Positions 2,152 through 52,317 of a DNA stretch of 64,000 bases are shown here, in pieces. Both the position numbers and the translations under genes were made by a program. This DNA comes from Rhodococcus sp. OK519 (GTDB lineage: Bacteria; Actinomycetota; Actinomycetes; Mycobacteriales; Mycobacteriaceae). The notes under the pieces were generated by a model. It made no database searches and was not told the DNA's origin. It saw nothing but the letters and a program-made list of their open reading frames with translations. The DNA is taken from positions 62,001-126,000 of the forward strand of contig NZ_QAOW01000002.1 of assembly GCF_003051005.1 (NCBI RefSeq), read 5' to 3'. Positions within the stretch are counted from its first letter, which is position 1, and each line of letters opens with the position of its first letter.

Positions 2152-2216
2152 CCGCGATAAGTGCGCAAAGCGCGGCTTCGGGCCCTCGAGAGCCGCGATA
2201 AGTGCGCGAAACGCGA
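2152..2216 (+). repeat. 41-base-period intergenic repeat, locus 1 (two units)
   Basis: Two copies of a 24-base block (2152-2175 and 2193-2216; core CGCGATAAGTGCGC) separated by a 17-base GC-rich spacer, so the period is 41 bases. The block begins CCGCG and ends near CGCGG, so each block, and each spacer between blocks, can close into a hairpin. The same element, with the same 41-base period and orientation, occurs at 41298-41362 and 52212-52317. It lies between convergent kgd and tetR. Confidence 0.8.
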
Positions 2217-2224
2217 GAGACCGG

Positions 2225-2836
2225 TCAGCCGCCGAGCAGGGCTGCGGCCGCTCCGGCGCTGAGCGCGACCGCGGGCAGTGCCGTGACCAGCATTTCGATC
2301 AGCTCGTCGCGGGGGATCTCCGGTGTGCGCAGCCACGTGATGGTGGCCTCCTCGACGAAGGCGATCCAGCCTCGCACCGAGAGGGCGATACGGGCATCGG
2401 GTTCGATTCCGAGTGTCGGGAGTTGCTCGACAACTCGGCGGGCCATCTCGGCGCGGGTCGCCTCGAAGACCTCCCGCATCGCGGGGTCACCACTGGCCGT
2501 GCCGCGCAGCAGTGACACGTAGGTGTCGCAGTTGTCGGAAACGTAGTCGACGTACGACGCCATGACGTCGCGCAGGATGTCGATGGGCGCGAGGTCGAGG
2601 TTCGGAGCGGTGCGGGCGAGCATCTCGGCGCTCGTGTGTCGCACGATCTCGACGTGGAAGTCGTGCTTGGACGCGAAGTAGTGGAACAGCAGGCCACGCG
2701 AAACGCCGGCCTTGTCGGCGATGTCCTCGACCGAGATCTGCTCGAGTGGACGATCTGCCAGCATGCGGACGCCGAGGTCGATGAGCTGGGCCCGCCGCTC
2801 TTCCGGGCTCAGTCGTACGCGTTTGACTGCATCCAT
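2225..2836 (-). CDS. TetR-family regulator, divergent from the monooxygenase gene
   Basis: 203-residue TetR/AcrR-type repressor. The N-terminal helix-turn-helix covers about residues 30-58 (EDIADKAGVSRGLLFHYF, a typical TetR recognition region); the rest is an all-helical ligand-binding and dimer domain. It is divergent from the flavin monooxygenase at 2907, and the only symmetric site between them (2845-2867) starts 9 bases before this ATG, so self-repression and control of the monooxygenase-SDR-hydrolase operon are likely. The ligand is not predictable. The start is the ATG at 2836, in agreement with the family N-terminus. The layout resembles ethR/ethA, but orthology is not claimed. Confidence 0.9.
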   Translation of the reverse strand: MDAVKRVRLSPEERRAQLIDLGVRMLADRPLEQISVEDIADKAGVSRGLLFHYFASKHDFHVEIVRHTSAEMLARTAPNLDLAPIDILRDVMASYVDYVSDNCDTYVSLLRGTASGDPAMREVFEATRAEMARRVVEQLPTLGIEPDARIALSVRGWIAFVEEATITWLRTPEIPRDELIEMLVTALPAVALSAGAAAALLGG

Positions 2837-2844
2837 GCGACCAC

Positions 2845-2867
2845 CTTACTGAATCGCAGTCAGTAAG
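2845..2867. promoter_or_regulatory. TetR operator candidate
   Basis: Perfect inverted repeat CTTACTGA-N7-TCAGTAAG between two divergent start codons, next to the -35 box of the monooxygenase promoter (2871). Position and symmetry fit the operator of the adjacent TetR protein. Confidence 0.75.
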
Positions 2868-2870
2868 CTA

Positions 2871-2899
2871 TTGACTGTCGATCAACAAGCTCCTACGCT
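2871..2899 (+). promoter_or_regulatory. promoter of the monooxygenase operon, leaderless
   Basis: TTGACT (2871-2876), a 17-base spacer, then TACGCT (2894-2899). The ATG at 2907 is 7 bases after the -10 box, which puts the transcription start at or next to the start codon. A TTG codon at 2871 is in frame with the gene but is part of the -35 box, so it should not be used as the start. Confidence 0.65.
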
Positions 2900-2906
2900 C
2901 CCATAT

Positions 2907-4520
2907 ATGAGTCTTCCAGTCACAGATACTTCCGCCAGGGCCGCGTCCCCGCGCCAGGTCGACACCCTGATCATCGGCAGCGGCTTCGCGGGTCTCGGCG
3001 CTGCTATCAAGCTGGCACAGGCGGGCAAGAAGGACTTCCTCGTTCTCGAGCGGGGCGACGACGTCGGCGGCACGTGGCGCGATAACACGTACCCCGGTGC
3101 CGCGTGCGACGTCCCCTCCCACCTGTACTCGTACTCCTTCGCCCTGAACCCCGAGTGGACGCGATCCTTCTCGCCGCAGCCCGAGATCCAGAACTACATC
3201 TCGTCGGTCGCGCGCCGGTACAGCGTCCTCGACAAGCACGTCTTCGGGTGCGAGGTGCAGTCCGCGCACTGGAACGAGACGTCTGCGCACTGGGAGGTGC
3301 AGACGTCGAAGGGCAACTTCGTCGCCAAAATCGTCGTCGCCGCCGTCGGCGCCCTGTGCGAGCCGTCGCTGCCCGACATCGAGGGCATCGAAGGCTTCGA
3401 GGGCGAAATCTTCCACTCCGCGCAGTGGAACCACGACGCCGACCTGAGCGGCAAGCGGATCGCCGTGATCGGCACGGGCGCGTCGGCCATCCAGATCGTG
3501 CCGCAACTCGCGGCGAAGGCCGCACAGCTCGACGTCTACCAACGCACCGCGCCGTGGATCCTGCCGCGCGCCGATCGCGAGTACACCAAGGCCGAGCACC
3601 TCGCGTTCAAGTACCTGCCCGGCTTCCAGAAGCTGTGCCGCACCGGCATCTACTGGATGCGTGAGACTCAGGTCGTCGGCCTCGCGAAGGCCCCGATCTT
3701 CATGAAGCCGCTGCAGTTCGCCGCCGAGCGGCACCTTCGCCGGCAGATCAAGGACCGGGACCTGCGCCGCAAGGTCACCCCGAACTTCCAGATCGGCTGC
3801 AAGCGCATGCTGATCTCCAACAACTACTACCCCGCGCTCGCGCAGCCGAACGTCGACGTCGTCACCGACGGTATCGCCGAGGTCCGCAAGGATTCGGTCG
3901 TCGACCGGGGCGGCGTCGAGCGCAAGGTCGACGCAATCGTCGTCGCCACCGGCTTCCATGTCACCGACTCCCCCACGTTCGCAGGCATTTTCGGCAAGGA
4001 TGGGCGTTCGCTCGCACAGACCTTCGACGACGGAGGCCAGCAGGGTTACAAGGGTTCGGCGATCGCGAACTTCCCCAACATGTTCTTCCTGGTCGGCCCC
4101 AACACCGGACTCGGCCACAGCTCGATGGTGTTCATGATCGAGTCGCAGCTCAACTACGTCGTCGATGCGATCAAGGTGATCGAGCGCTACGACATCGGCA
4201 CGATCGAGGTCCGCAAGGACGCGCAGGACACGTACAACCGAGAACTGCAGAACAAGCTCTCGAAGAGTGTGTGGAACAACGGCGGTTGCGCCAGTTGGTA
4301 TCTCGACAAGCACGGCAACAACACGACGCTGTGGCCGGGTTTCACGTTCGAGTTCCGCAACATGACCAAGCAGTTCGATCTGGGGGCCTACCGCAGCGTG
4401 ACGACCGGCGATCTGCCGGTGCCCACGATCGCGGCGCAGAAGCCGGCCGTGAATACCGCCTCCATCGAAGCGGACCTGGCCGATACCGATCTCGACGACG
4501 ACAAGGTGGCAGCACAGTGA
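2907..4520 (+). CDS. FAD-dependent Baeyer-Villiger-type monooxygenase
   Basis: 537-residue class B flavoprotein monooxygenase expected to use NADPH and O2 to insert oxygen into a ketone or aldehyde. Visible motifs: FAD-binding GSGFAG (24-29), GGTWRDN (54-60), the Baeyer-Villiger fingerprint FxGxxxHxxxW as FEGEIFHSAQW (164-174), a second nucleotide-binding GTGASA (189-194), and ATGF further on. Start chosen at ATG 2907, because a longer in-frame TTG at 2871 coincides with the -35 box. The next gene overlaps its stop (GTGA at 4517), followed by an esterase: ketone to ester to hydrolysis is a coherent pathway, as in mymA- or ethA-type loci. Substrate unknown. Confidence 0.9.
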   Translation: MSLPVTDTSARAASPRQVDTLIIGSGFAGLGAAIKLAQAGKKDFLVLERGDDVGGTWRDNTYPGAACDVPSHLYSYSFALNPEWTRSFSPQPEIQNYISSVARRYSVLDKHVFGCEVQSAHWNETSAHWEVQTSKGNFVAKIVVAAVGALCEPSLPDIEGIEGFEGEIFHSAQWNHDADLSGKRIAVIGTGASAIQIVPQLAAKAAQLDVYQRTAPWILPRADREYTKAEHLAFKYLPGFQKLCRTGIYWMRETQVVGLAKAPIFMKPLQFAAERHLRRQIKDRDLRRKVTPNFQIGCKRMLISNNYYPALAQPNVDVVTDGIAEVRKDSVVDRGGVERKVDAIVVATGFHVTDSPTFAGIFGKDGRSLAQTFDDGGQQGYKGSAIANFPNMFFLVGPNTGLGHSSMVFMIESQLNYVVDAIKVIERYDIGTIEVRKDAQDTYNRELQNKLSKSVWNNGGCASWYLDKHGNNTTLWPGFTFEFRNMTKQFDLGAYRSVTTGDLPVPTIAAQKPAVNTASIEADLADTDLDDDKVAAQ

Positions 4521-5347
4521 GCGAGTTCGCAGGCAAGGTCTGCGTCATCACCGGCGCAGGATCGGGTATCGGCCGCGCCGTGGCGCTGAACCTGGCCGGG
4601 CGGGGCGCGAAAATCGCCCTGTCCGACATGGATTCGACAGGGCTGGCCGAGACGGTTCGTCAGGTGGAGGCACTCGGCGCCGACGTCAAGTCCGATCATC
4701 TCGACGTCACGCAGCGCGAGGCGGTCCTCGCGTACGCCGACGCCGTGGTCGCCCACTTCGGCAAGGTGAACCAGGTGTACAACAACGCCGGCATCGCCTT
4801 CCACGGCGAGGTGGAGCGCTCGGAGTTCAAGGACATCGAGCGCATCATGGACGTCGACTTCTGGGGTGTCGTCAACGGCACCAAGGCGTTCCTGCCCCAC
4901 GTGATCGCGTCCGGTGACGGACACATCGTGAACATCTCGAGCCTGTTCGGCCTGCTGGCGATCCCGGGCCAGAGTGCCTACAACGCAGCCAAGTTCGCGG
5001 TCCGTGGATTCACGGAGTCGCTCCGCCAGGAGATGCTCATCGCGAAACACCCGGTGAAGGTCACGTGCGTGCACCCCGGCGGCATCAAGACCGCGATCGC
5101 GCGGAACGCAACGATGCCCGACGGCGACGACCAGGTGACCTTCGCCCAGTTCTTCGACAAGCGTCTCGCGCGCACAACACCCGAGGATGCCGCGAAGACC
5201 ATCGTGAACGGCGTCCGCAAGGGCAAGGCGCGCGTGCTGATCGGCGCGGATGCCAAGTTCCTCGATGCATGGGTACGGATCGTCGGCCCGAGCTATCAGC
5301 GGGTCGTCGCGACGATCACCTCACGCGTGATGCCGAAGTCCAAGTAG
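4517..5347 (+). CDS. short-chain dehydrogenase/reductase
   Basis: 276-residue classical SDR. TGAGSGIG (12-19) binds NAD(P); NNAG is at 89-92; the catalytic Ser, Tyr and Lys fall at about 142, 155 and 159 (YNAAK). Start is the GTG at 4517, which overlaps the upstream stop as GTGA, so it is translationally coupled to the monooxygenase. It probably oxidises or reduces the alcohol/ketone partner of the monooxygenase substrate. A longer open frame upstream runs through the monooxygenase gene and is not used. Specific substrate not predictable. Confidence 0.9.
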   Translation: MSEFAGKVCVITGAGSGIGRAVALNLAGRGAKIALSDMDSTGLAETVRQVEALGADVKSDHLDVTQREAVLAYADAVVAHFGKVNQVYNNAGIAFHGEVERSEFKDIERIMDVDFWGVVNGTKAFLPHVIASGDGHIVNISSLFGLLAIPGQSAYNAAKFAVRGFTESLRQEMLIAKHPVKVTCVHPGGIKTAIARNATMPDGDDQVTFAQFFDKRLARTTPEDAAKTIVNGVRKGKARVLIGADAKFLDAWVRIVGPSYQRVVATITSRVMPKSK

Positions 5348-5360
5348 CGAAGGATCCACG

Positions 5361-6296
5361 GTGCGTTCGATCGATCTCCCACTGCCCCTCGTCGAGGCGA
5401 GCGTCAAGCCCTTCTACCGTCTGGCGCTCAATGCTCGTCTCCCGTTCCGGGTACAGCGCGCACTGTTGGACCTCGCCGCGCCGATCCAGACACTGCCCGA
5501 CGGGGCGGTCGTCGAGAAGACCACTCTCGCCGGCCGTCCCGCAGAGCGCATCACGGTCGGCGCCACCGAGCGTCGGTGCGCGGTGCTCTATCTGCACGGC
5601 GGTGCCTACACGATCGGGTCCCTCGCGACACACCGCTCGCTCGCGGCGTACCTGGCGCGCGAATCCGCCAGTGTCGTATACACGCTCGACTATCGACTCG
5701 CCCCCGAGCATCCGTTCCCTGCCGGGCTGGACGACGCGGTCGCCGCGTTCACCGAACTCGTCGCCGACCACGGATTCTCGGCCGATCGGGTTGCCATCGC
5801 CGGAGATTCGGCCGGCGGTGGACTCTCGCTCGCCACGGCTCGCCGCCTGATCGACACTCGCAGGCTGCGTCCCGCCGCGCTGGCCCTCATCTCGCCATGG
5901 GTCGATCCCGGTTCACGCACAGCGCCGTTCGATCGCGACGTCGTCGTGAACACCGCCTGGGCGTATGCGTCGGCCGGGGCGTATCTGGGCGGCGGGGATC
6001 CCACCGATCCCGGCTACGCGCCGCTGCACGGCGATCTGACCGGCCTACCGCCGACCGCCGTGCATGTGGGCGCGAAAGAGGTGCTCTATCCGCAGATCGC
6101 CGATCTGCGGGCGAAACTCGAGGCGGCGGGCAACGGCCTGCACTACGTCGAGTACCCCCGCCTGTGGCATGTCGCGCACCTGCAGGCGTCGGTGCTCGGG
6201 GAGGCCGCGGACGCCGTGGCCGACCTGGGCGCGTTCCTGCGCTCGGTGTTCCCGTCAGGTGTGTTCGCCGAGCCACTCACCGGCGACCTCGGCTGA
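5361..6296 (+). CDS. alpha/beta hydrolase, hormone-sensitive-lipase type esterase
   Basis: 311-residue esterase. HGGA (79-82) forms the oxyanion hole of the HSL family; GDSAGG (148-153) carries the nucleophile Ser150; a His near residue 272 (in HVAHLQ) would complete the triad with an Asp before it. GTG start at 5361 with an AAGGA ribosome site 7-11 bases upstream, 13 bases after the SDR stop, so third gene of the same operon. It could hydrolyse the ester made by the upstream monooxygenase. Its last 42 bases overlap the convergent binding-protein gene. Confidence 0.88.
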   Translation: MRSIDLPLPLVEASVKPFYRLALNARLPFRVQRALLDLAAPIQTLPDGAVVEKTTLAGRPAERITVGATERRCAVLYLHGGAYTIGSLATHRSLAAYLARESASVVYTLDYRLAPEHPFPAGLDDAVAAFTELVADHGFSADRVAIAGDSAGGGLSLATARRLIDTRRLRPAALALISPWVDPGSRTAPFDRDVVVNTAWAYASAGAYLGGGDPTDPGYAPLHGDLTGLPPTAVHVGAKEVLYPQIADLRAKLEAAGNGLHYVEYPRLWHVAHLQASVLGEAADAVADLGAFLRSVFPSGVFAEPLTGDLG

Positions 6297-7181
6297 CGAG
6301 ACCTCGCCGTCGCGCACCCGCGCCGCCATCGCCGTCAGGTCTCCGGTGCTCAACTGCAGGATCACACTCAGTGCCCTGACGTCGTCGGCGTTCAGCACGC
6401 CACTGCGGAAGAGCGGCACCACGTTCTGCGCCGTGAAGGCGGCCTCGTCGTCGGCGAGTACCACCAGTTCGTTCTGCGCGACAACCGGATCGGCGGTAGT
6501 GGCCCCGCCGACCGCCGAGACTCCGGCGATCAGTTCCCGTGCGACGTCGGACGTCGCACCGGCCGGGACGACCCCTCCGAAGGTGCACCCGTACCGCGAC
6601 TGCAGCCGCTCGAGCGCGTGCGTGTCCTCCGAGAAGGTGGTGGACGCGTGAAGAGTGAGCGCGGAGCACCGGTCGGCGAGGTCGGCGACCGAGCGCGCCC
6701 CCGACGACTCCGCCTGACCCGCCGTCAGCACGAGCGCCGCCCGGTCGTCCGCAGGCGCATACTCCGACACCGAAATCCCGTCCGGCAGAGACCTGTTGAG
6801 CGCCTCGTACACGTCCTCCGACTCGGTGACCTCGGACGAGGGATCGAACCGCCACAGCAGTCGACCCGTGTGCTCGGGCACGAGCGAGACGCGGTTGTCG
6901 TCCAGGGCAGCCAGGCGATCCGTCTGGTCGCCCAGACCCAGGACCAGTTCGGTGGCCCTACCGCTCGCGCCCAGCGCGCCCTCGTAGAGACGCGCGACGA
7001 GTTCGCCCTCGACGGTGTCGGCGGCACCGATCACGACCGGTGCGGGCGCGGGCGGCCCACCGGTGACGCTGCTCAGGTCGACCCCGCACCCCGCCACGAC
7101 AGCCACGGTGGGAATCACCGCGAGGCAGGCTGTGAGACCTGTCGCACGTCTGAGGATGCGCCCATTTCCGTTCGGTGCCAC
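6255..7181 (-). CDS. divergent osmoprotectant-binding-like lipoprotein
   Basis: 308-residue ProX/OpuBC-like substrate-binding protein exported as a lipoprotein (signal peptide ending VVAGC, lipidated Cys about residue 32). It is a paralogue of the binding protein at 7365: both share the QNVVPLFRS/LLRA segment near the C-terminus and the same fold order. The ligand signature differs: PEHTGRLL here, PDYTGNLL in the neighbour, so the usual aromatic Tyr is a His. GTG 7181 is chosen as start because GGAGAGG lies just upstream; ATG 7211 is an alternative adding 10 residues. Divergent from the transporter operon, and overlapping the hydrolase gene tail to tail. It may bind another ligand or be a second receptor for the same permease. 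Confidence 0.82.
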   Translation of the reverse strand: MAPNGNGRILRRATGLTACLAVIPTVAVVAGCGVDLSSVTGGPPAPAPVVIGAADTVEGELVARLYEGALGASGRATELVLGLGDQTDRLAALDDNRVSLVPEHTGRLLWRFDPSSEVTESEDVYEALNRSLPDGISVSEYAPADDRAALVLTAGQAESSGARSVADLADRCSALTLHASTTFSEDTHALERLQSRYGCTFGGVVPAGATSDVARELIAGVSAVGGATTADPVVAQNELVVLADDEAAFTAQNVVPLFRSGVLNADDVRALSVILQLSTGDLTAMAARVRDGEVSSAEVAGEWLGEHT

Positions 7182-7364
7182 CGTGTCCCTCTCCGATCGA
7201 GCGTGCTGCACACCTGCATCTGTCGTGCCGTGCGTTTGTCGTACCTATCGTTACACTGAGTCCGCGCACCATCACGAGCGGTCGAGAGATCCGGCTTGCC
7301 ACCGCGCGACGACCACTCTCGAGTTGCGGGGGTGCCGTCACGCCGGATCCGATGGAAGGACGAC

Positions 7365-8312
7365 ATGAAGGTTTTCCGGGTTCGAAATCGCGGCCGCTTC
7401 GGCGCGGGCCTCATCGCACTGCTCGCGCTGCCCCTCGCGGCGTGTGGCGGTGACCCACTCGAAAGCGGCGGGTCGAACACGGACGGCGACACCGTCGTCG
7501 TGGGCTCCGCGAACTTCCCGGAATCGGAGACGGTGGGTTTCGTATACGCCGAGGCGCTGCGGGCCAACGGGTTCGACGTGCAGACGAAGATGAACATCGG
7601 CACCCGCGAGGTGTACGTCCCGGCCCTGCGCGACGGTTCGCTCACAGTGATCCCCGACTACACCGGAAACCTGCTCGAATACCTCGAACCTGCATCGACG
7701 GCCACCACCGCCGCGGACATCGAGGCGGCACTGCCTGCCGCGCTGGCACCGGATCTCGCGATCGCGACCCCGGCTCCGGCCGAGGACAAGGACGCCGTCG
7801 TGGTGACCCGCGAGACCGCCGAGAAGTGGAACCTGACGTCGATCGCCGACCTCGCAGCGCATTCCGCGGAGGTGACCTTCGCGGCGCCGGCCGAGTTCCA
7901 GGAGCGGTCGGTGGGGTTGCCGGGCCTGCGCGAGATCTACGGCCTCGACATCTCGGCCGCCAATTTCGTTCCCATCGCCGACGGCGGCGGTCCCGCAACG
8001 GTGAAGGCACTCACGTCCGGGCAGGTGACGGCCGCGAACATCTTCACCACGTCGCCCGCGATCGAGGCCAACGACCTCGTCGTGCTGACCGATCCCAAGA
8101 GCAACTTCCCCGCCCAGAATGTGGTCCCGCTGCTGCGGGCGTCGGCGCAGACCGACCGGTTGACGCAGATCCTCGATGCCGTGTCGGCCAAGCTCACCAC
8201 CGAAGAACTGGTGGGGCTCAACGACGCAGTGTCCGGCGACAGCAAGACCGAACCTCAGGCTGCGGCGAAGCAGTGGGTCGCACGTCAGGGCCTGGACACC
8301 CCCATCTCGTGA
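7365..8312 (+). CDS. glycine betaine/choline-type substrate-binding lipoprotein (ProX-like)
   Basis: 315-residue receptor of the osmoprotectant ABC importer. The signal peptide ends in a lipobox (LAACGG). GSANFPESE near the start of the mature protein and PDYTGNLL are typical of the OpuC/ProX quaternary-amine binding family. ATG 7365 is chosen because GGAAGGA sits at 7354-7360; a longer in-frame ORF lacks a ribosome site and spoils the signal peptide. The next gene starts on its stop (GTGA), so the four transporter genes 7365-10831 form one operon. Exact ligand (betaine, choline, proline betaine) not resolved. Confidence 0.9.
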   Translation: MKVFRVRNRGRFGAGLIALLALPLAACGGDPLESGGSNTDGDTVVVGSANFPESETVGFVYAEALRANGFDVQTKMNIGTREVYVPALRDGSLTVIPDYTGNLLEYLEPASTATTAADIEAALPAALAPDLAIATPAPAEDKDAVVVTRETAEKWNLTSIADLAAHSAEVTFAAPAEFQERSVGLPGLREIYGLDISAANFVPIADGGGPATVKALTSGQVTAANIFTTSPAIEANDLVVLTDPKSNFPAQNVVPLLRASAQTDRLTQILDAVSAKLTTEELVGLNDAVSGDSKTEPQAAAKQWVARQGLDTPIS

Positions 8313-9430
8313 TCTCGTTCTCCGCTGTCTCCAAACGTTTCCCGGATGGCACGGTGGCCGTCGACGGACTCGACCTGAAGATCGACGCGGGTTCGTTCAC
8401 AGTCTTCGTCGGCCCGTCCGGCTGCGGCAAGACGACGTCGATGCGGATGGTCAACCGGATGGTGGTGCCCACGGCGGGCACCGTCACCGTCGACGGCCGC
8501 GACGTCGCCGCGACGGACGCCGTCGAACTGCGCCGCGGCATCGGGTACGTCATCCAGGGCGGCGGCCTGCTGCCGCACCGCACCGTCCTGGACAACATCG
8601 CGACGGTCCCGGTCCTGCGGGGACAGACCCGCCGGGCGGCGCGGCGCGCCGCACTCGACGTCCTCGATCGGGTGGGCCTCGACCCGATTCTGGCGGGACG
8701 GTATCCGGCGCAACTGTCCGGCGGTCAGCAGCAGCGGGTGGGCGTGGCGCGGGCGCTCGCCGCGGATCCGCCGATCCTGCTGATGGACGAGCCCTTCAGC
8801 GCGGTCGATCCGGTGGTACGCGCCGAACTCCAGGCCGAGATGCAGCGACTGCAGGCCGAACTGCGCAAGACCATCGTGTTCGTCACCCACGACATCGACG
8901 AGGCCGTCCGACTCGGTGACCGGGTCGCGGTCTTCGGCCCGCACGGCCGCCTGCAGCAACACGACACTCCGCGCATCGTGCTCGCGGCTCCCGCAACCGA
9001 TTTCGTAGCAGATTTCGTCGGCCGCGACCGCGGCTACCGCGGGTTGTCCTTCCGTGGCGCCGACGCCGTGCCCCTTCACGCCCTCCGCAGGTTGCGCGAG
9101 TCGGAGATCGCCGCCGCAGCACTTGCTCCCGGGGATTGGGCACTCGTCGTCAGCGACGCCGAGCACCCGCGAGGCTGGATCGATGCGGCGGGCCTGGACG
9201 CCGTGCGGGCGGGTCGCTCCGTCGCGGAGGCATCGGCGGCGGGCGGGTCGCTGTTCACGGTCGGCACGGATCTACGCCAAGCGCTCGACGCCGCCATCTC
9301 GTCGCCGTCGGGTGTCGGTGTGGCGGTCGATACGTCCGGCGCCGTGGTCGGCGGGATCGACGCGGCCGACGTCGTCGCACTGCTCGCCGAACAGCGTCGC
9401 GCAGAGGATCGCCTGCGGAACGGCCGGTGA
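8309..9430 (+). CDS. osmoprotectant ABC transporter ATP-binding protein (ProV-like)
   Basis: 373-residue ATPase energising the importer on the cytoplasmic face. Walker A GPSGCGKT (35-42), signature LSGGQ (136-140), Walker B LLMDEP (157-162), and an H-loop VTHDID near 190. The C-terminal third (about 240-365) looks like a degenerate CBS pair, the ionic-strength sensor module of ProV/OpuA ATPases. GTG start at 8309 overlaps the stop of the binding-protein gene. A longer frame upstream is out-of-frame shadow of that gene. Confidence 0.92.
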   Translation: MISFSAVSKRFPDGTVAVDGLDLKIDAGSFTVFVGPSGCGKTTSMRMVNRMVVPTAGTVTVDGRDVAATDAVELRRGIGYVIQGGGLLPHRTVLDNIATVPVLRGQTRRAARRAALDVLDRVGLDPILAGRYPAQLSGGQQQRVGVARALAADPPILLMDEPFSAVDPVVRAELQAEMQRLQAELRKTIVFVTHDIDEAVRLGDRVAVFGPHGRLQQHDTPRIVLAAPATDFVADFVGRDRGYRGLSFRGADAVPLHALRRLRESEIAAAALAPGDWALVVSDAEHPRGWIDAAGLDAVRAGRSVAEASAAGGSLFTVGTDLRQALDAAISSPSGVGVAVDTSGAVVGGIDAADVVALLAEQRRAEDRLRNGR

Positions 9431-9434
9431 CGGT

Positions 9435-11669: not shown

Positions 11670-11737
11670 GCCGACAATCCTGACCGAGAGCGGTCGAACG
11701 CGCGCCGGATCCGCCGACATCGGCGCACGGGGAAGAC

Positions 11738-11773
11738 AGCGGGGCCCCGTCGCTGCTGCGACGGGGCCCCGCT
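11738..11773 (-). terminator. terminator after malic enzyme gene
   Basis: Perfect 15-base stem (11738-11752 with 11759-11773) and a 6-base loop CTGCTG, starting 20 bases past the malic enzyme stop and before the hydrolase start. It separates the two minus-strand genes. Confidence 0.85.
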
Positions 11774-11792
11774 ACTGCTGTGTGTCGAGCCG

Positions 11793-40450: not shown

Positions 40451-41260
40451 TTGAGTTTCATCCTCGTCGAACGGCCACGCGAGAACGTAGCGCTGGTGAC
40501 CCTCAACCGTCCGGAGCGGATGAACGCGATGGCGTTCGATGTCATGGTCCCGTTCCGCGAATCGCTCGAGGCCATCAGCAACGACAACTCGGTGCGCGCC
40601 GTCGTGATCACCGGTGCGGGGCGGGGATTCTGTTCGGGCGCCGACCAGACGTCGGCGGGCAAGCCCCCGCACATCGACGGACTCACGCGACCGACGATCG
40701 CGCTGCGTTCGATGGAGATGCTCGACGACGTCGTACTGACGCTGCGGCGCATGCACCAACCCGTCATCGCGGCCGTCAACGGCGCCGCGATCGGCGGCGG
40801 ATTCTGCCTGTCGATGGCCGCCGACATCCGCCTCGCCGCACCGGAGGCGTATTTCCGTGCGGCCGGCATCAACAACGGCCTGACCGCGAGCGAACTGGGC
40901 CTGAGCTACCTGCTGCCGCGCGCGATCGGATCGTCGCGGGCGTTCGAGATCATGCTCACCGGTCGCGACGTCGACGCCGACGAGGCCTCGCAGATCGGCC
41001 TCGTCTCCCGAATCGTCGCGCAGGAAGACCTCCTCGACGACGCCTTCGACCTGGCGGAGCGGATCGCGATGTTCTCCCGCCCCGGCGTCGAACTCACCAA
41101 GCGGACGTTGTGGTCGAGCCTCGACGCGTCCTCGATGTCGCAGCACATGAACCAGGAAGGGCTCGGCCAGTTGCTGATCCGCCTGCTCACCGACAACTTC
41201 GAGGAGTCCACCCTCGCCCGCCGCGAGAAGCGCGATCCGCTCTTCCGCGACACCCGCTAG
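40451..41260 (+). CDS. enoyl-CoA hydratase/isomerase
   Basis: 269-residue crotonase-fold enzyme of acyl-CoA metabolism. GRGFCSGAD and NGAAIGGGF form the oxyanion hole and CoA contacts; a Glu is present in ASELGL, at the second catalytic position, while the first Glu position is not obvious, so it may be an isomerase or hydratase. TTG 40451 start is supported by AGGAG at 40441-40445, which is sequestered in the hairpin 40394-40450. Followed by the 41-base repeats and the TetR-dioxygenase pair. Confidence 0.88.
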   Translation: MSFILVERPRENVALVTLNRPERMNAMAFDVMVPFRESLEAISNDNSVRAVVITGAGRGFCSGADQTSAGKPPHIDGLTRPTIALRSMEMLDDVVLTLRRMHQPVIAAVNGAAIGGGFCLSMAADIRLAAPEAYFRAAGINNGLTASELGLSYLLPRAIGSSRAFEIMLTGRDVDADEASQIGLVSRIVAQEDLLDDAFDLAERIAMFSRPGVELTKRTLWSSLDASSMSQHMNQEGLGQLLIRLLTDNFEESTLARREKRDPLFRDTR

Positions 41261-41297: not shown

Positions 41298-41362
41298 CCG
41301 CGATCAGTGCGCAAAGCGCGGATTTCCGGGCCGGATTCCCGCGATAAGTGCGCAAAACGCGG
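41298..41362 (+). repeat. 41-base-period intergenic repeat, locus 2 (two units)
   Basis: Blocks at 41298-41321 and 41339-41362 (cores GATCAGTGCGC and GATAAGTGCGC), 17-base spacer, period 41. The spacer centre is the palindrome-like CCGGGCCGG. Same orientation as loci 1 and 3. It lies between the enoyl-CoA hydratase gene and the next promoter. Confidence 0.8.
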
Positions 41363-41414: not shown

Positions 41415-41421
41415 CGTCGTT

Positions 41422-43043: not shown

Positions 43044-43046
43044 GAC

Positions 43047-44078: not shown

Positions 44079-44170
44079 ACCCCGACCGTACGCCCGCTCC
44101 CACTCGGCGGGGATATGGTCGAAGGGAACCGGCCGGCGCCCGATGCGGCCGAACGCAACCGGGAGGATTC

Positions 44171-45028: not shown

Positions 45029-45055
45029 CGGCCCTATCGCGGGTCTCGCACAGAT

Positions 45056-45085
45056 CGAGGGACGGGTGCCGGCACCCGTCCCTCG
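45056..45085. terminator. bidirectional terminator, convergent genes
   Basis: Perfect 30-base palindrome: arm 45056-45070 (starting CGAGGGACG) mirrored by 45071-45085; the four central bases would open as loop. Between the dehydrogenase and the duplicated membrane-protein gene. Confidence 0.85.
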
Positions 45086-45093
45086 ACCGCTTG

Positions 45094-47217
45094 TCAGACC
45101 GCGGCCGCCTCCCGTTCCGGCTCGAGCTCCAGCGGTTCCGTCCGGACGGGCCGGAACCGGTCGATGATCACGACGCAGAGCAGGGAGACGGCCCCCCAGA
45201 TCACGAACGTGAGCAGGTGGCTGCCGACGGTGTCACCGCCGAAGTACAAGATCGACCGCACCGATTCGACGGCCGCGGGCATCGGCAGGATGTCGTGCAG
45301 GAACCGGAAGAGCGCCGGCTCCATGTAGATCGACAGCGCACCACCCGAGGCCGGGACCCCGAGGAACATCAGGATCGCGACGACCGGCAGCACCGCCAGC
45401 AACCCCATCAGTCGGACGAACACGGTCGTGAACAGCGCCGTGGCGATGATCGCGACGATGCCGGTGCCGACCAGTGGCAGGAAGTGACCGTCGACGGCTC
45501 CGACGATCGGGCCCGCGATCAGCCAGACCACGACGGACATGAACACCGCCCACCCGGCCAGGACCGGCAGCAGCTTGCGCAGGCCCATCACCATCGGCGC
45601 GGCGTTGGCGGCCACGACGATGATCATGAAACCTGACATGATCCAGCCCATCGCGACGTACAGGCTCACCGTGCCCATCGTGTCCCCGCCGTCGAGCGAG
45701 GCGACGGTCTCACTGGACATCGGCACCTGTTGGCCCGCGGCCACCTGACCGAACACCTGGGTGACCACCTGGTGCTGGCTGACGCCCGCGGCCTGGTTGG
45801 TGATCAGTGTGGCGGAGGGGTTGTCCGCCGACGGCAGCACGTAGGCGGCCACCACGGTGCGGTCCTCGACCTGGGCGCGCGCCTCGTCGACCGAATCGGA
45901 TGCACGCAGGTCGAACAGGCCTGGCATGTTCCGGTCGAGACCGCCCACGGCCTGCTCGGCCTGCTCGGTGTTCGCGGCGACGACGGTCACCGGCATATCC
46001 TGCGGCGCAGGCTGATACATCGCGCCGAGCATGAACGTGATCATCATGGCAACCATGCCGAGCGGGAAGATCGCCAGCGTGGCGTAGCGGACCTTGGTGC
46101 TCGTAGGACGTGGACCCGCAGTCAGGGACGGCATGGACACCTGGGGTGTCCCGGCGTCGGGGTTGCGTCGGCGTTTGAGCGCGTCGACGCCGAGCGTTGC
46201 GGCCAGCGCCAGCACCGCGCCGATGCCCAGCACCGTCAGGTGGGTGCCGACTCCGTTGCCGCCGAAGTACAGCACCGAGCGCAGGGCTTCACCGGTCGCG
46301 GGCGTGGGCAGGAACTTGTGCAGCGTCGCGTAGAACGAGGGCATCGTGTAGACGGACATGCCCATGTTGGACGCCGGCACGCCGAGCACCATCAGGAACA
46401 ACATGCCTGCCAGGACCGCCATCGGGCCGAGGATCCTGGTGAGGAACAACTGCACCGTGCCGACCGCGAACACCGCGAGCCAGCTGATTCCCAGGACCGC
46501 CGCGGTGTTCCCCTCGAGCGCGCCGAGGATCGGTCCGGCGACGAACCACACCAATCCGGCGATCAACGCGGACCAGCCGGCCAGGATCGGCACGAACCTG
46601 CGGAAGCGCAGCAGTTCCGGCGAGTTCGACAGCATGACGCTCAGTGGCATGTAGCCGGCCAGCATCAGCGCCGTCGTCATGAACATCGCGGTGAGCCCGG
46701 CGGAGTCGCTCGCCGGGAGCGGTGCGAGATCCTCGGCCTCCAGCGTCAGTCCCTGTGCAAGCACCTGGGGTGCCAGAAGTCCGGTGACCGTGCCGACCTG
46801 CGACGCACCGGCCGCGGTGGCGGTCAGGACAGTCGCCGTGCCCGCCGCCTGATCCGACAGCACGACCGCTCCCGCGACCTCGCGGTCGAGGACCGACTGC
46901 CGGGCGTCGGCGTCGGTCGCGACCACCCGGATGTCGACCCCAGAAGGATTCTCGGCGGCGAGCGCTTGGGCGAACTGCTCGGCCTGCGGCGCCGGGCCCG
47001 ACACGGCGATCGGCATGTTGTGCGGGGTGGGCGCGTGCATCGTCGCCAGATAGCCCGTGATCATCATGCCGACCATGAGGAACGGCAGCAGGATCATCGC
47101 GACGTAGCGACCGATCCGCTCCTTCTTGGCACGGGATGCTTCGACCTCGACCTCGGAATCGACCTCGGAATCGTGCGCCGGTGGACCCTCGTCGGTCGCC
47201 GTAGGTGTGGATGTCAC
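45094..47217 (-). CDS. internally duplicated YhgE/ABC-2-like membrane protein
   Basis: 707-residue polytopic membrane protein made of two homologous halves (about 38-365 and 379-695). Each half starts with a helix (YVAMILLPFLMVGMMITGYL; YATLAIFPLGMVAMMITFML), then PTPHNMPIAV or PAPQDMPVTV, a periplasmic domain, then about five helices ending in LGVPAS and RSVLYFGG or RSILYFGG. Halves of this kind are usually separate YhgE/Pip- or ABC-2-like chains acting in export. The N-terminal 35 residues are acidic. GTG 47217 with GGGAG upstream. Divergent TetR gene at 47413. No ATPase gene is adjacent. Function unknown. Confidence 0.85.
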   Translation of the reverse strand: MTSTPTATDEGPPAHDSEVDSEVEVEASRAKKERIGRYVAMILLPFLMVGMMITGYLATMHAPTPHNMPIAVSGPAPQAEQFAQALAAENPSGVDIRVVATDADARQSVLDREVAGAVVLSDQAAGTATVLTATAAGASQVGTVTGLLAPQVLAQGLTLEAEDLAPLPASDSAGLTAMFMTTALMLAGYMPLSVMLSNSPELLRFRRFVPILAGWSALIAGLVWFVAGPILGALEGNTAAVLGISWLAVFAVGTVQLFLTRILGPMAVLAGMLFLMVLGVPASNMGMSVYTMPSFYATLHKFLPTPATGEALRSVLYFGGNGVGTHLTVLGIGAVLALAATLGVDALKRRRNPDAGTPQVSMPSLTAGPRPTSTKVRYATLAIFPLGMVAMMITFMLGAMYQPAPQDMPVTVVAANTEQAEQAVGGLDRNMPGLFDLRASDSVDEARAQVEDRTVVAAYVLPSADNPSATLITNQAAGVSQHQVVTQVFGQVAAGQQVPMSSETVASLDGGDTMGTVSLYVAMGWIMSGFMIIVVAANAAPMVMGLRKLLPVLAGWAVFMSVVVWLIAGPIVGAVDGHFLPLVGTGIVAIIATALFTTVFVRLMGLLAVLPVVAILMFLGVPASGGALSIYMEPALFRFLHDILPMPAAVESVRSILYFGGDTVGSHLLTFVIWGAVSLLCVVIIDRFRPVRTEPLELEPEREAAAV

Positions 47218-47300
47218 AGTCGTGCTCCCGCTGGTCGCTGATGTCTGTATATGAACGCGTCGATCCGAACCGACACCCCAAAATTACGCCGCTTGACTTA

Positions 47301-47312
47301 AATTGCACAATT
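47301..47312. promoter_or_regulatory. operator-like dyad between membrane protein and TetR
   Basis: AATTG-CA-CAATT inverted repeat in an AT-rich patch between the divergent genes; TTGACT at 47293-47298 may be a -35 box reading toward the TetR gene. Confidence 0.4.
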
Positions 47313-47412
47313 GGTTGGCGTGGTGACGTTCGTCCCACCAGCACCCCGAGGCCCGCGGCACGACCGACGGTCACGGCGTAGCGCGGAACGACACGGCACG
47401 AGGGGAAACACA

Positions 47413-48075
47413 TTGGGACAGCACAGCGACCGGGTGCGAAACGCACTGCTGGATGCAGCCGAGGAACTGTTCGCCACCGACGGCATCGACGCCGTGTCGA
47501 ACCGGCGCATCGCCGAACACGCCGGCAACTCCAACCATTCAGCGGTGAGCTACCACTTCGGTGGGCGCGACGAACTCGTGCGGGCACTGCTCGATCGCCA
47601 CACCTCGTTCGCACGGGCACGACGAGCCGAACTCGTCGCGGAACTCCGCGAGGACGCCCCCATCACCGACCTACTGGCCTGCATGATCCTGCCGTTCACG
47701 GACCTCCTGGCAGCGCGTCCCGCGCCCAGTTGGCGGGCACGGTTTCTGCAGCAGTTGCGCACGGTGCCGTCCGTGGCCGCGTCGGTCGCCGAGTCCGTGC
47801 GGGCCGATCCGCTCACCGATCAGTTGATCCTCCGGACCCGACAACACTTTTCGACGGTTCCCGACGGGGTGTTCGCCGGACGCGCTCGGATCCTCGGACA
47901 CGTGACACTCGACGCGTGCGCGGAGTACGAATCGCGCGTCCAGGCCGGGTCCGTCACCGCCGACTGGACGGGACTCGGCTACTTCCTCATCGACTCCGCC
48001 GCGGGCATGCTCGGCGCACCTGTCACCCACGCCGGGGACTTCCTCGGGGAGTCGGCTGCGACGTATCTGCTGTAG
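47413..48075 (+). CDS. TetR-family regulator, divergent from the duplicated membrane protein
   Basis: 220-residue TetR repressor. HTH at about 25-55 (NRRIAEHAGNSNHSAVSYHFGGR). TTG 47413 chosen since GAGGGG lies 7 bases upstream and it gives a normal distance to the HTH; upstream GTG codons near 47320 would add 30 residues of low-complexity sequence. Likely controls itself and the membrane-protein gene; the ligand may be what that protein exports. Confidence 0.85.
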   Translation: MGQHSDRVRNALLDAAEELFATDGIDAVSNRRIAEHAGNSNHSAVSYHFGGRDELVRALLDRHTSFARARRAELVAELREDAPITDLLACMILPFTDLLAARPAPSWRARFLQQLRTVPSVAASVAESVRADPLTDQLILRTRQHFSTVPDGVFAGRARILGHVTLDACAEYESRVQAGSVTADWTGLGYFLIDSAAGMLGAPVTHAGDFLGESAATYLL

Positions 48076-48103
48076 CGGGACCGGGGACGGCCCCTGCGCC
48101 GAT

Positions 48104-49510
48104 TCAAGCGAGCAACTTCTTCTGCACCTTGCCCATCGCGTTGCGCGGCAGTGACTCCACGATCCGCACCTCGCGCGGCCGCTTGTGCACCGACAGCTGC
48201 GACGCGACGTGGTCGATGAGCACCTGCTCGTCGACCGCATCGCCGACGACGAACGCCACGATCCGCTGACCGAGGTCGGCGTCGGGCAGTCCGACGACTG
48301 CGGCCTCCTTCACACCCGGATGCCCGAGCAGCGCGGTCTCGACCTCGCCGGCACCGATGCGGTACCCGCCGGACTTGATGAGGTCGGTGGACTCGCGTCC
48401 GACGATCCGATGGAACCCGCCCTCGTCGATCACTGCAACGTCACCGGTCTTGAACCAGCCGTCGTCGGTCCACGACTCGGCGGTCGCCTCGGGGCGGTTC
48501 AGATAGCCGTCGAACAGCGTCGCCCCACGGACCTGCAGGCCGCCGATGCTCTCGCCGTCGTGCGGCACCGGGCCCCCGTGCTCGTCGCGCAGCCGGGTCT
48601 CGACGCCACGGACCGGCAGACCCACCCAGCCGGGGCGGCGCTCGCCGTCGACGCGAGTGCTGATCGTCAGCATCGTCTCACTCATGCCGTAGCGCTCGAT
48701 CGGGGTGAGCCCGGTGAGCTCGCGCAGCCGTTCGAACACCGGCACAGGCAGCGGCGCACTGCCCGACACCAGCAGCCGGGCATCGCTGAGAGCGCGCGCC
48801 GACTCCTCGTCCAGGGCGATCCGCGACCACACCGTGGGCACGCCGAAGTACAGCGAACCGCGCGCCGCGGCATACGCCTGCGGTGTGGGCTTGACGGTGT
48901 GGATCAGTCGGCTTCCCACACGCAGCGGGCCGAGCACACCGAGGATCAAACCGTGCACATGGAACAGCGGAAGGCCGTGCACCAGAACGTCCTTGGACGT
49001 CCACTGCCATGCCTCGGCAAGCGCGTCGATGCCCGCGGCGATCGCGCGGCGGCTGAGCAACACGCCCTTCGGCGGGCCCGTCGTGCCGGACGTGTAGAGC
49101 ACGAACGCGGTCGACGACGGGTGTGGTTCGGGATGGCTGTGCCAGTCCCGCGAATGTACGCGCACCGGGACCACCGGCAGCGCGGATCCCTCGGGCGCCC
49201 GCCCGAGCCATGCCTGGGCGCCGGAATCGGACAGGATGTGATCGAGTTCGGCCGGACCCGAATCCGGCGGAACGGGAACGACGGTGACCCCGGCGAGCAG
49301 GCATCCGACGACGGCGATCACCGTCGCGGGTGTCGGATCGGCGAGCACCGCGACCACGCGGGCACCGGCGATGCGCTTGGCCAGCGCCCCGGCGGCCCCG
49401 AGGATGTCGGTGCGCGAGAGCGCGGTGTCACCGATCCGGACGGCGTCGGGCATGTCGTCGCCGCGCGCGACGGCGAGGGGGTTCAGCGAACTGAGCAGCA
49501 CGACGCCCAC
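48104..49510 (-). CDS. fadD36: acyl-CoA synthetase, FadD36-like
   Basis: 468-residue adenylate-forming ligase. YTSGTTGPPKG (P-loop), YGMSET, WFKTGD and GGYRIGAGEVE motifs, and a C-terminal Lys (MGKVQKK) for catalysis. Its short length and its place next to proline catabolism genes match Rv1193 (FadD36). The medium-chain or aryl substrate is not predictable. GTG 49510 chosen; a second in-frame GTG is 6 bases on. Confidence 0.88.
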   Translation of the reverse strand: MGVVLLSSLNPLAVARGDDMPDAVRIGDTALSRTDILGAAGALAKRIAGARVVAVLADPTPATVIAVVGCLLAGVTVVPVPPDSGPAELDHILSDSGAQAWLGRAPEGSALPVVPVRVHSRDWHSHPEPHPSSTAFVLYTSGTTGPPKGVLLSRRAIAAGIDALAEAWQWTSKDVLVHGLPLFHVHGLILGVLGPLRVGSRLIHTVKPTPQAYAAARGSLYFGVPTVWSRIALDEESARALSDARLLVSGSAPLPVPVFERLRELTGLTPIERYGMSETMLTISTRVDGERRPGWVGLPVRGVETRLRDEHGGPVPHDGESIGGLQVRGATLFDGYLNRPEATAESWTDDGWFKTGDVAVIDEGGFHRIVGRESTDLIKSGGYRIGAGEVETALLGHPGVKEAAVVGLPDADLGQRIVAFVVGDAVDEQVLIDHVASQLSVHKRPREVRIVESLPRNAMGKVQKKLLA

Positions 49511-49528
49511 TGTCTCACAAGCGCCGCG

Positions 49529-50497
49529 TCAGCCTCGCGTGAGCGTCGAGCGCAGGAAGAACTTCAAGTTCGACGGCCGCTCCGCGAGACGCCGCATGAA
49601 GTAGCCGTACCACTGCGCGCCGTACGGAACGTAGACCCGCATCCGGCGGCCCGCATCGACCACCCGCGCCTGCTCGAGATCGCGGATGCCGAACAGCATC
49701 TGATGCTCGAAATCGTCCGGACCCCTCCCGGTTTCCCGAATCATCCCGTCGACCACGTCGATGATCGCGGGATCGTGGGTGGCCAGCATCGGGTACCCTT
49801 TGCCGCGCATCAGGATCTCGAGGCACCGCAGGTACGACGCGTCGACGTCGTCCCGGGCCCGGTACGCCACCGACTCAGGTTCCCGGTACGCGCCCTTGCA
49901 CAGCCTGATCCGCGATCCCGGGCCGGCGAGGCCCCGACAGTCTCCCTCGGTGCGGCGCAGGTACGCCTGCAGCACCGTGCCGAGCCACGGGAAGTCGGCC
50001 CGCAACTCCCGCACGATCGACAGCGTGGAATCGGTGCGGGAGTGGTCCTCGGCGTCGACGGTCACCCACACGCCGTGCTCGTGCGCCGCCGCGCAGATAG
50101 TCCGCGCGTGGTCGAGGGCGATCTTGTCGCCGTCGACCGGCAACCCCTGCCCCAGCGCAGACAGCTTCACCGACACCTCGAGCGGGCGTATCCCGGAGGT
50201 GTCGGCGTGCGGCAGTCGTGCGAGTTCGGCGAGCAGTTCGAGATACGCGACGACGGTTTCCCGGGCCTGCCCGACATCGCGAGTGTCCTCGCCGAGGTAG
50301 TCGATGCTGACCGACCTGCCCGCGACGAGCAGTGTCGACGTCGCGGCCATCGCATCGGCGAGCGACTCCCCCGCCACGAAGCGGCGGACGATCGACTTGG
50401 TGACCGGTGCCCGGGTGACCGCGCTCTTCACCCGCGGCGAGCGCGCCGCAGCGAGGATCGCGGGCCGCAGCGGGTTCGACAGGACACCCGGCGTCAT
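49529..50497 (-). CDS. proline dehydrogenase
   Basis: 322-residue FAD enzyme oxidising proline to pyrroline-5-carboxylate at the membrane. The TIM-barrel is read from VSVKLSALG and DAEDH to RLCKGAYREPE, ATHDP, and EHQMLFGIRD near the C-terminus, with YGAQWYGYFMRRLAERPSN at the end, the substrate helix. ATG 50497 overlaps the pruA stop (TGATG). Works with the upstream pruA. Syntenic with Rv1188. Confidence 0.92.
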   Translation of the reverse strand: MTPGVLSNPLRPAILAAARSPRVKSAVTRAPVTKSIVRRFVAGESLADAMAATSTLLVAGRSVSIDYLGEDTRDVGQARETVVAYLELLAELARLPHADTSGIRPLEVSVKLSALGQGLPVDGDKIALDHARTICAAAHEHGVWVTVDAEDHSRTDSTLSIVRELRADFPWLGTVLQAYLRRTEGDCRGLAGPGSRIRLCKGAYREPESVAYRARDDVDASYLRCLEILMRGKGYPMLATHDPAIIDVVDGMIRETGRGPDDFEHQMLFGIRDLEQARVVDAGRRMRVYVPYGAQWYGYFMRRLAERPSNLKFFLRSTLTRG

Positions 50498-52140
50498 CAG
50501 CCGCCGTCCGGGCCCATGTGCGGGTAGCGGTGATCGGTGGGCGGGACGAACGTCTCCTTGATCGTGCGCGCCGACACCCAGCGCAGCAGGTTCAGTGGCG
50601 ACCCGGCTTTGTCGTCGGTACCCGATGCCCGCGCGCCCCCGAACGGCTGCTGACCCACCACAGCACCGGTCGGCTTGTCGTTCACATAGAAGTTGCCCGC
50701 CGCGTATCGCAGTGCGGCCGAGGCCTGTTCGATCGCGGTGCGGTCGGTGGCCACCACCGCACCGGTCAACGCGTACGGGGAGGCTGCGTCGACCGCGGCG
50801 AGCACGTCGGCGAACGAGGTCGGTGCGGAATCGTCGTAGACGTGGACCGCGAGGATGGGGCCGAAGTATTCCTTCGACAGCGCCTCGTCCCCCCGATCGT
50901 CGACCAGCAGCACCGTGGGACGGACGAAGTACCCGACGCTGTCGTCGTACTTACCGCCCACCACCACCTGTACGCCGTCGGCGCCGCGGGCACGTTCGAT
51001 CGCCGCGACGCTCTTGTCGTAGGCGCGTCGGTCGATGAGCGCGCCACCGAAGTTCTCGAGATCGCTGACGTCGCCGTAGGTCAGTGCGTCCACCTCGGCG
51101 AGGAACTGGTCTTTCATCCCGCTCCATATCGATTTCGGGATGTAGGCGCGCGACGCCGCGGAGCACTTCTGCCCCTGGTACTCGAACGCGCCGCGGATCA
51201 GCGCCGTCGACAGCACCGCCGGGTCGGCCGACGGGTGCGCGACGACGAAGTCCTTGCCACCCGTCTCGCCCACCAGTCGCGGATAGCCGCGATACTTTCC
51301 GATATTCGCCCCCACCTCGCGCCACAGGTGCTGGAACGTGGCGGTGGACCCCGTGAAATGGATGCCCGCCAGCCGCGGATCGCTCAGTGCCACATCCGAT
51401 ACGGCCAGTCCGTCGCCGGTGAGCAGGTTGATCACACCGGGGGGCAGGCCGGCCGCCTCGAGCAGTCGCATCGTCCGGTACGCGGCGAGCGTCTGGGTGG
51501 GCGACGGCTTCCAGATCACCGTGTTTCCCATCAGCGCCGGCGCGGTCGGCAGGTTCCCGGCGATCGCGGTGAAATTGAACGGCGTGATCGCGTAGACGAA
51601 CCCCTCGAGCGGGCGGTACTCGAGCCGGTTCCACACCCCCGGCGACGACGTGGGTTGCTCGGCGAGGATCCCGCGCGCGAAGTGGACGTTGAACCGCCAG
51701 AAGTCGATCAGTTCACACGGCGCGTCGATCTCGGCCTGCTGGACGGACTTGGACTGCCCCAGCATGGTCGCCGCGGCCATCTTCTCCCGCCACGGCCCGG
51801 ACAGCAGGTCCGCGGCCCGCAGCAGCACCGCGGCACGCTCGTCGAACGGCAACCCGCGCCACGCCGGCGCCGCGGCGGTCGCGGCGTCGATCGCGGCGCG
51901 CGCGTCGTCATACGTGGCGTTGGCGTAGGAGCCGAGGATCGCGGAATGCCGGTGTGGTCGAACCACTTCCATCGGTTCGCCGTTGCCGTGGCGGTCTTCG
52001 CCGCCGATGATGTGCGGGATCTCGATGGCGGACGAGCATTCCTCGAGGGCCCCGCGAAGGCGTTCGCGTTCGGGACTCCCCGGCGCGTAGGAATGGACCG
52101 GCTCGTTGTACGGCGCCGGTACGTGCGTGACGGCATCCAT
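50497..52140 (-). CDS. pruA: L-glutamate gamma-semialdehyde (pyrroline-5-carboxylate) dehydrogenase
   Basis: 547-residue NAD-dependent aldehyde dehydrogenase converting the proline-derived semialdehyde to glutamate; also called rocA. TPFNFTAIAGNL and GNTVIWKPSPTQ bind cofactor; ETGGKDF holds the Glu base; YQGQKCSAASRAY contains the catalytic Cys; KEYFGPILAV follows. ATG 52140 has GAGGAGGG upstream; a longer frame to 52164 is weaker. Operon pruA-proline dehydrogenase. Confidence 0.94.
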   Translation of the reverse strand: MDAVTHVPAPYNEPVHSYAPGSPERERLRGALEECSSAIEIPHIIGGEDRHGNGEPMEVVRPHRHSAILGSYANATYDDARAAIDAATAAAPAWRGLPFDERAAVLLRAADLLSGPWREKMAAATMLGQSKSVQQAEIDAPCELIDFWRFNVHFARGILAEQPTSSPGVWNRLEYRPLEGFVYAITPFNFTAIAGNLPTAPALMGNTVIWKPSPTQTLAAYRTMRLLEAAGLPPGVINLLTGDGLAVSDVALSDPRLAGIHFTGSTATFQHLWREVGANIGKYRGYPRLVGETGGKDFVVAHPSADPAVLSTALIRGAFEYQGQKCSAASRAYIPKSIWSGMKDQFLAEVDALTYGDVSDLENFGGALIDRRAYDKSVAAIERARGADGVQVVVGGKYDDSVGYFVRPTVLLVDDRGDEALSKEYFGPILAVHVYDDSAPTSFADVLAAVDAASPYALTGAVVATDRTAIEQASAALRYAAGNFYVNDKPTGAVVGQQPFGGARASGTDDKAGSPLNLLRWVSARTIKETFVPPTDHRYPHMGPDGG

Positions 52141-52211
52141 GCTGCCCTCCTCAGCCCGAGCCAAGTGACTGCAACCAAGCTCAGGCTACGCCCGAGACCA
52201 CCCCGAGCGCC

Positions 52212-52317
52212 GCGCAACAAGTGCGCTGAGCGTCGGAATCTTCACCCGGCCGGCGCGACAAGTGCGCAAAACGCGGGAACCCGGGCCTCACGCGCGCGAC
52301 AAGTGCGCAAAACGCGG
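52212..52317 (+). repeat. 41-base-period intergenic repeat, locus 3 (three units)
   Basis: Blocks at about 52212-52235 (diverged), 52253-52276 and 52294-52317, each 41 bases apart; core GACAAGTGCGCAAAACGCGGG in the last two (split: GACAAGTGCGC, AAAACGCGGG). Spacers are GC-rich with CCCGGCCGG or CCCGGGC centres. Between divergently placed ends of pruA (start) and dapC (stop). Confidence 0.8.

Follow-up and report, generated by a model that had tools for sequence, protein, structure and literature searches.

A REPIN-like repeat of Rhodococcus sp. OK519 and a candidate partner enzyme, a DUF559 nuclease whose gene is bracketed by the same repeat

The stretch of Rhodococcus sp. OK519 DNA analysed here (the window: 64,000 nucleotides, contig NZ_QAOW01000002.1, positions 62,001 to 126,000, of the genome called G000 below) carries seven copies of a 24-base block in three intergenic arrays, which an earlier note, made from the letters alone, had read as a tandem binding site or a processed RNA. 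This raises the question of what kind of element the arrays belong to and which enzyme, if any, is associated with it. They are probably (with a probability of about 0.6) satellite copies of a REPIN-like element, named F1 in this report, whose doublets act as recognition sites of a homing-type nuclease; the gene of this nuclease (G000:C1:146010-146897, 295 amino acids) lies outside the window and has F1 arrays on both sides.

All seven blocks were found in the window at the positions given earlier, on the + strand and, according to our own gene calls, outside genes. They form two direct units at 2152..2216 (anchors 2159 and 2200), two at 41298..41362 (anchors 41305 and 41346) and three, the first of them degenerate, at 52212..52317 (anchors 52219, 52260 and 52301), and the period between anchors is exactly 41 bases, as had been noticed. 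The core originally described is exact in five of the seven copies, but not in the first copy of the 41-kb locus (at 41302, GATCAGTGCGC) nor in the first copy of the 52-kb locus (at 52216, AACAAGTGCGC, with a degenerate 3' half). The motif GAYAAGTGCGC, allowing one mismatch, occurs 12 times in the window, where 3.2 occurrences are expected and 100 shuffles gave at most 8.

F1 is a dispersed, extragenic and multicopy element in G000, with at least 46 arrays in those parts of the 5.28-Mb genome that were fetched, three of which are those of the window; this number is a minimum, the regions having been picked from listed one-mismatch matches. Its 24-bp unit is quasi-palindromic (consensus CCGCGAYAAGTGCGCAAAACGCGG), with ends that are self-reverse-complementary and a centre that is nearly so. 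Unit centres are 40-42 bp apart in 196 of 197 neighbouring pairs (counted over the loci collected, within 70 bp, identical contexts being taken once), whether the pair is inverted (n=134; 101 at 41, 32 at 42 and 1 at 44 bp) or direct (n=63; 53 at 41, 7 at 42 and 3 at 40 bp). No pair has the plus-minus order, and AAAACGC faces outward in all the inverted pairs counted. Anchors are 41 bases apart in direct neighbours and 46 or 47 in inverted ones, and since both arrangements have a centre distance of about 41 bp, the constant feature is the helical phase of the units. The genome-wide search that the earlier note had proposed thus extends the fixed period to the whole genome, but not the fixed orientation, which is a property of the window: an inverted pair is present in 38 of the 46 arrays, and the remaining 8 are purely direct (one with an overlapping two-mismatch match, which was disregarded). 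Because the period is fixed genome-wide, a protein-binding site with a set geometry is a good reading of F1, and this half of the earlier interpretation stands.

The spacers differ among loci and, in keeping with the palindromic centres previously noticed, are self-complementary above shuffles: in 29 distinct spacers from inverted arrays of G000, each of them shuffled, the mean longest stem of the inner 19 nucleotides is 3.79, against 2.96 (sd 0.13). A hairpin of the strand was rejected as the chief constraint. Covariation of three variable columns of the two arms (z 3.0, 3.3 and 4.3 against shuffling, relatedness not being removed) speaks for it, whereas the mirror pairs of the spacer are less complementary than shuffled ones at two columns (z -3.8 and -3.0), and folding of the three window loci gives a z of -4.5 at one and of -1.3 and -0.8 at the other two.

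F1 arrays prefer gene ends, convergent ones especially. For the 44 that have a called gene to either side, the neighbours are convergent in 17 cases, co-directional in 22 and divergent in 5, while the corresponding numbers for all 204 intergenic stretches of at least 60 bp in the same regions (array-bearing ones included, with our own codon-based gene calls) are 31, 106 and 67 (Fisher test, P 0.001 for the convergent class and P 0.003 for the divergent one). One of the 44 (L035) runs over a called gene end, and others abut or slightly overlap stops. Being dispersed, extragenic, mostly in inverted pairs and near gene ends, F1 resembles repetitive extragenic palindromic (REP) elements and REPINs, so that the contrast with REP elements drawn in the earlier note was wrong in kind. 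Other genes of G000 lying between two arrays (a pair coding for an MFS and a MarR protein, among others) have no common theme, Pfam having been applied to the MFS and MarR genes only.

Twelve of the 14 genomes of the genus contain the exact F1 15-mer, which has no match in 141 genomes of the same family outside the genus, and the reversed 15-mer has no match across all 14; these two null results rule out a chance origin. A scan of a collection of 84,980 species, in which records of G000 itself may be missing, turned up the inverted core in 67 stretches; every one of them is titled Prescottella or Rhodococcus hoagii, and the core is, as searched, confined to Prescottella (the Rhodococcus equi group).

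The gene bracketed by F1 codes for a member of PF04480 (DUF559), with 37.8 bits against a curated cut-off of 20.6. Its start was placed at an ATG 45 codons upstream of that of the first gene call, whose 250-amino acid product scores 38.2. Residues ~3-183 form a part similar to AbiEi (itself containing a winged-helix DNA-binding domain), and residues ~188-289 a Vsr/DUF559 nuclease domain. The predicted structure has the two-domain fold of AbiEi in the first part and, in the second, a Vsr/EDxHD fold with conserved acidic residues, the closest fold being that of a homing endonuclease; the predicted protein is likely a DNA-cutting enzyme. The dN/dS ratios of the gene (0.08-0.26, in 28 of 28 pairs) indicate purifying selection, and its neighbours code for an AAA-ATPase (PF00004) and a pssA-like protein (PF01066).

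Orthologues with at least 73% identity are intact in eight genomes, all eight with arrays on both sides, and broken in G010, with an array on one side. In G003, G009, G011 and G013 the AAA-ATPase and pssA-like genes adjoin, without the nuclease and without any unit. Exact units, which range from 0 to 88 over the 14 genomes (two have none), number 14-88 in the eight genomes with an intact gene, 0-3 in the four with the empty site, 5 in G010 and 28 in G012. An array copy of G006 (L332) shows, compared with G001, single-base losses in short runs that occur also outside the repeat; these may be sequencing errors, which would lower the exact-unit count of G006. Broken nuclease genes were seen at L231 (G007) and L222/L230 (G010), interrupted by an in-frame stop or a frameshift, with repeats remaining alongside.

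Many related nuclease genes are bracketed by other repeats. When 500 bp on either side of each gene were compared for a repeat shared in either direction (match +1, mismatch -2, score of at least 17), 35 of 57 nuclease rows had one, namely the 8 F1 orthologues and, among 47 paralogue rows, 27 (L222 and L230, which complete the 57, are a single broken gene), and none of 315 control genes of G000 did. A first version of this test had 36 of 58 rows at that score; L285 (27 at that time) was dropped from the test with full gene bounds, having no usable start, and L235, at 48 in an earlier comparison, scored 11 in both versions, its frame overrunning the downstream repeat. A 400-kb sample of G007, selected so as to cover DUF559 places rather than drawn at random, had two genes out of 259 called ones at 17 or more, the best (40) being a DUF559 gene and the other (19) not; only one of the three known DUF559 places entered this comparison, the F1 nuclease being hidden by another frame and the third lying near the edge. 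The flank repeats form eleven clusters and vary among nuclease groups, a near relative of the F1 nuclease having a similar repeat. A second family, GGGCGGTT...AACCGCCC, has 59 copies and is present in all 14 genomes; 57 of the copies are exactly 47 bp long, the pattern allowing 40 to 66 (its reversed control gave 0), and in six genomes DUF559 genes lie between two copies 982-993 bp apart. Among records of a plasmid collection (alphaproteobacteria, Deinococcus, cyanobacteria and actinobacteria; a few of the supposed plasmids may in fact be chromosomes), a repeat is shared by the two 400-bp flanks at 11 of 19 DUF559 loci, fetched from 36 listed matches, when gene starts are assumed; with the annotated start the gene of Sphingomonas plasmid 1 falls from 48 to 9 and the total becomes 10 of 19. 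In six of the same records 7 of 209 annotated control genes also scored (0/30, 3/34 and 4/145); five of these seven adjoin the DUF559 gene directly.

Other arrangements were observed. At L261 (genus g9) one flank of a DUF559 gene carries a 21-bp repeat in tandem, CGTTGACCGTGCGTCCCAAAC, and the opposite flank carries the inverse of this repeat, which means that bracketing repeats are not necessarily inverted doublets. At L295:6001-9449 (G007) two doublets of the GGGCGGTTACTGC family lie ~3.4 kb apart with a unit of the CGACTAACTCGCGG family between them. Standalone DUF559 genes in an insertion-like position occur inside clusters (sufB/sufC, paaD/paaZ and hpa genes) at L313, L317, L315 and L316, the first of these without a shared flank repeat.

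It is likely that the doublets are recognition sites of the bracketed nuclease, and an even question whether the nuclease also maintains or spreads them. The pairing of gene and repeat is directly observed; that the nuclease binds and cuts the doublet and moves or preserves its copies is what we infer from the observations above. According to this model, each 24-bp quasi-palindromic unit would be bound by one AbiEi-like part, and two or more protein copies would line up along one face of the DNA at intervals of 41 bp (about four helix turns), presenting their nuclease domains over the palindromic spacer. The spacer would be cut or nicked and then repaired, by which doublets would be maintained, multiplied and spread, and unequal exchange would alter arrays by whole 41-bp units.

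Several observations weigh against this interpretation. The assembly of G012 has 28 exact units and lacks a close orthologue; one of its units lies beside the pssA-like gene and is followed by a short open frame and the start of the contig. A tentative reading of this frame as the end of an IS30-type transposase is unsupported by Pfam (only TilS, 19.2 bits, under the cut-off of 21), so that gene loss and an assembly gap are indistinguishable. G006, G007 and G008 have 16, 19 and 14 exact units despite having the gene (44, 44 and 36 with a looser pattern). No shared flank repeat was found in 22 of the 57 nuclease rows nor in 8 of the 19 plasmid-collection loci, the 315 controls come from a single genome, and the genomes are related, several paralogue rows being probably mutually orthologous, which makes the P values optimistic. 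Flank repeats near gene ends could also be operators and terminators and not mobile ends. The sole clear present/absent pair between close genomes is an array of G001 absent in G006; G000 has the element at the same place, judged by eye, and loss in G006 is thus likelier than a fresh insertion. No target-site duplication was found, and no insertion boundaries could be defined in the aligned array sites.

The main rival would invert the order of events: the repeats came first and spread by other means, and homing-type DUF559 genes settled in or beside them as good cutting sites, as parasites and not partners. A nuclease fold nearest to that of a homing endonuclease and DUF559 genes placed within operons (between sufB and sufC, without a shared flank repeat, or paaD and paaZ), together with the repeats of Pseudanabaena and S. 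meliloti that flank neighbouring genes too, agree with it. We nevertheless regard it as unlikely, given that all four empty sites of the F1 gene are devoid of F1 units, the genomes having them are nearly devoid of F1, and the repeats differ among nuclease groups while the near relative of the F1 nuclease has one like F1. The fixed 41-bp geometry, the retention of the 52-kb array by 10 of 14 genomes and the preference for convergent gene ends could alternatively reflect selected sites of a host DNA-binding protein (for nucleoid organisation, gyrase or insulation), with an incidental nuclease; two of 14 genomes without an exact unit, counts from 0 to 88 and the unrelated repeats that bracket other DUF559 genes make this improbable. 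Slightly less probable still is an RNA element, either a bidirectional terminator or a 3'-end stabiliser, in spite of the long hairpins that inverted doublets could form, the position of arrays 3' of stop codons and the covarying arm columns: Rfam gave no match at gathering score in the window, folding is clearly above shuffles at one of the three window loci, arrays may be purely direct (8 of 46) or lie between divergent genes (5 of 44), and the 2-kb array adjoins a separate stem-loop with 21-nucleotide arms. The first two of these results give no support to the processed RNA of the earlier note.

Among known systems, F1 is closest to REPIN/RAYT, described in the consulted part of PMC3116915 as inverted doublets at a constant distance, extragenic and dispersed, beside a single-copy enzyme gene. 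F1 shares the short palindromic units in inverted pairs (centre distance of 41 or 42 in 133 of 134), the extragenic dispersal and the single-copy enzyme gene, and this likeness would suit ordinary REPINs driven by a RAYT that was lost or missed. We disfavour this explanation as very improbable: RAYT (PF01797) is absent from G000 and present in four of the 14 genomes (G006, G007, G010 and G011) but in none of the five richest, and none of the five Y1 loci of the genus has an F1 unit in its fetched flanks, for which reasons RAYT was rejected as the partner of F1. F1 differs further in having as partner a DUF559/Vsr-type nuclease fused to an AbiEi-like part instead of a Y1 (HUH) transposase, and in its frequent direct 41-bp arrays. 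For CGTC-tagged REPs, the part of PMC3733652 consulted reports no dedicated transposase, mainly inverted dimers and a common position between convergent or unidirectional genes; F1 is similar in its inverted pairs, its convergent-gene preference and the lack of a RAYT in G000. The CGTC-tagged hairpin unit was not recognised in F1, no systematic look having been made, and the words Actinobacteria, Rhodococcus and Mycobacterium are, as searched, absent from the main text of that paper.

On the side of the enzyme, the F1 partner has the same predicted nuclease fold as I-Bth0305I and Vsr, and I-Bth0305I dimerises, according to the part of PMC3943268 consulted, on a target of nearly 60 bp; one F1 doublet is about as long. 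Compared with EDxHD homing endonucleases, no intron or intein was seen at the F1 nuclease, and its target-like doublet occurs on both sides of the gene and in tens of other places. AbiEi antitoxins (AbiE and Rv2827c, from the portion of PMC7319586 consulted) differ in that the F1 protein continues into a nuclease domain, a second F1 array lies downstream of its gene, and the neighbours code for the AAA ATPase and a CDP-alcohol phosphatidyltransferase instead of a nucleotidyltransferase toxin; by analogy with these antitoxins, binding of paired repeats of ~23 bp by the AbiEi-like part would be compatible in size. Caulobacter VsrA is also a DUF559 protein with a Vsr-like fold, although its function is read, in the part of PMC12907096 consulted, as mismatch repair, and 'palindrom' has no occurrence in the main text of that source.

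The window arrays vary among relatives. The 2-kb array separates two convergent genes and is 8 bp away from the stop codon of one of them, a TetR-family regulator gene (2225..2836, - strand, PF00440). In its eight aligned orthologous stretches there are two units in G000 and G002, three in G005 and G004, a mixed three-unit array in G012, one degenerate unit in G009, a remnant at most in G010 and none in G013, the differences in unit number between species being steps of ~41 bp. The terminator-like stem-loop adjoining it (2086-2132; 95% complementary arms, 5 nucleotides between them) is located 3' of a gene ending at 2064, and is similar in aligned relatives. The 41-kb array lies 37 bp 3' of an enoyl-CoA hydratase gene (40496..41260, + strand, PF00378), and ahead of a TetR-family gene; of four aligned stretches, those of G000 and G005 have two units, that of G003 none and that of G009 a degenerate trace. 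The 52-kb array, 21 bp from the stop of an aminotransferase gene (52339..53439, - strand, PF00155), is the one retained in 10 genomes with at least one unit (one mismatch allowed): three units in eight of them (the degenerate first included), two in G012 and one in G010, with degenerate remnants in G009 and none in G003, G011 and G013.

REP-like doublets with a partner enzyme are already known, and what would be new here, if shown, is a different class of enzyme and a different mechanism. Searches of open-access literature on Rhodococcus and repetitive extragenic palindromic sequences listed nothing on F1, and no title or abstract listed linked DUF559, PF04480 or Vsr with palindromic repeats; in our view, on this title and abstract evidence, the link between DUF559 and repeats is unpublished. 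The bracketing of related genes suggests a little-noticed partnership between nuclease and repeated DNA that extends to distant bacteria. A tentative generalisation, which we hold as somewhat less than an even bet, is that Vsr/DUF559 nucleases, alone or fused to AbiEi, are a second, RAYT-independent class of REP partners, each recognising its own palindromic doublet of fixed geometry, being bracketed by it and propagating it by cutting and repair. If true, this would supply the missing enzyme for many repeat families without a known transposase, and a nuclease family often bracketed by palindromes (in four phyla, in a small sample) is a concrete and directly testable candidate for that partner. 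It would also give a role to DUF559, a Pfam family of unknown function, and offer naturally occurring nuclease-site pairs for studies of recognition.

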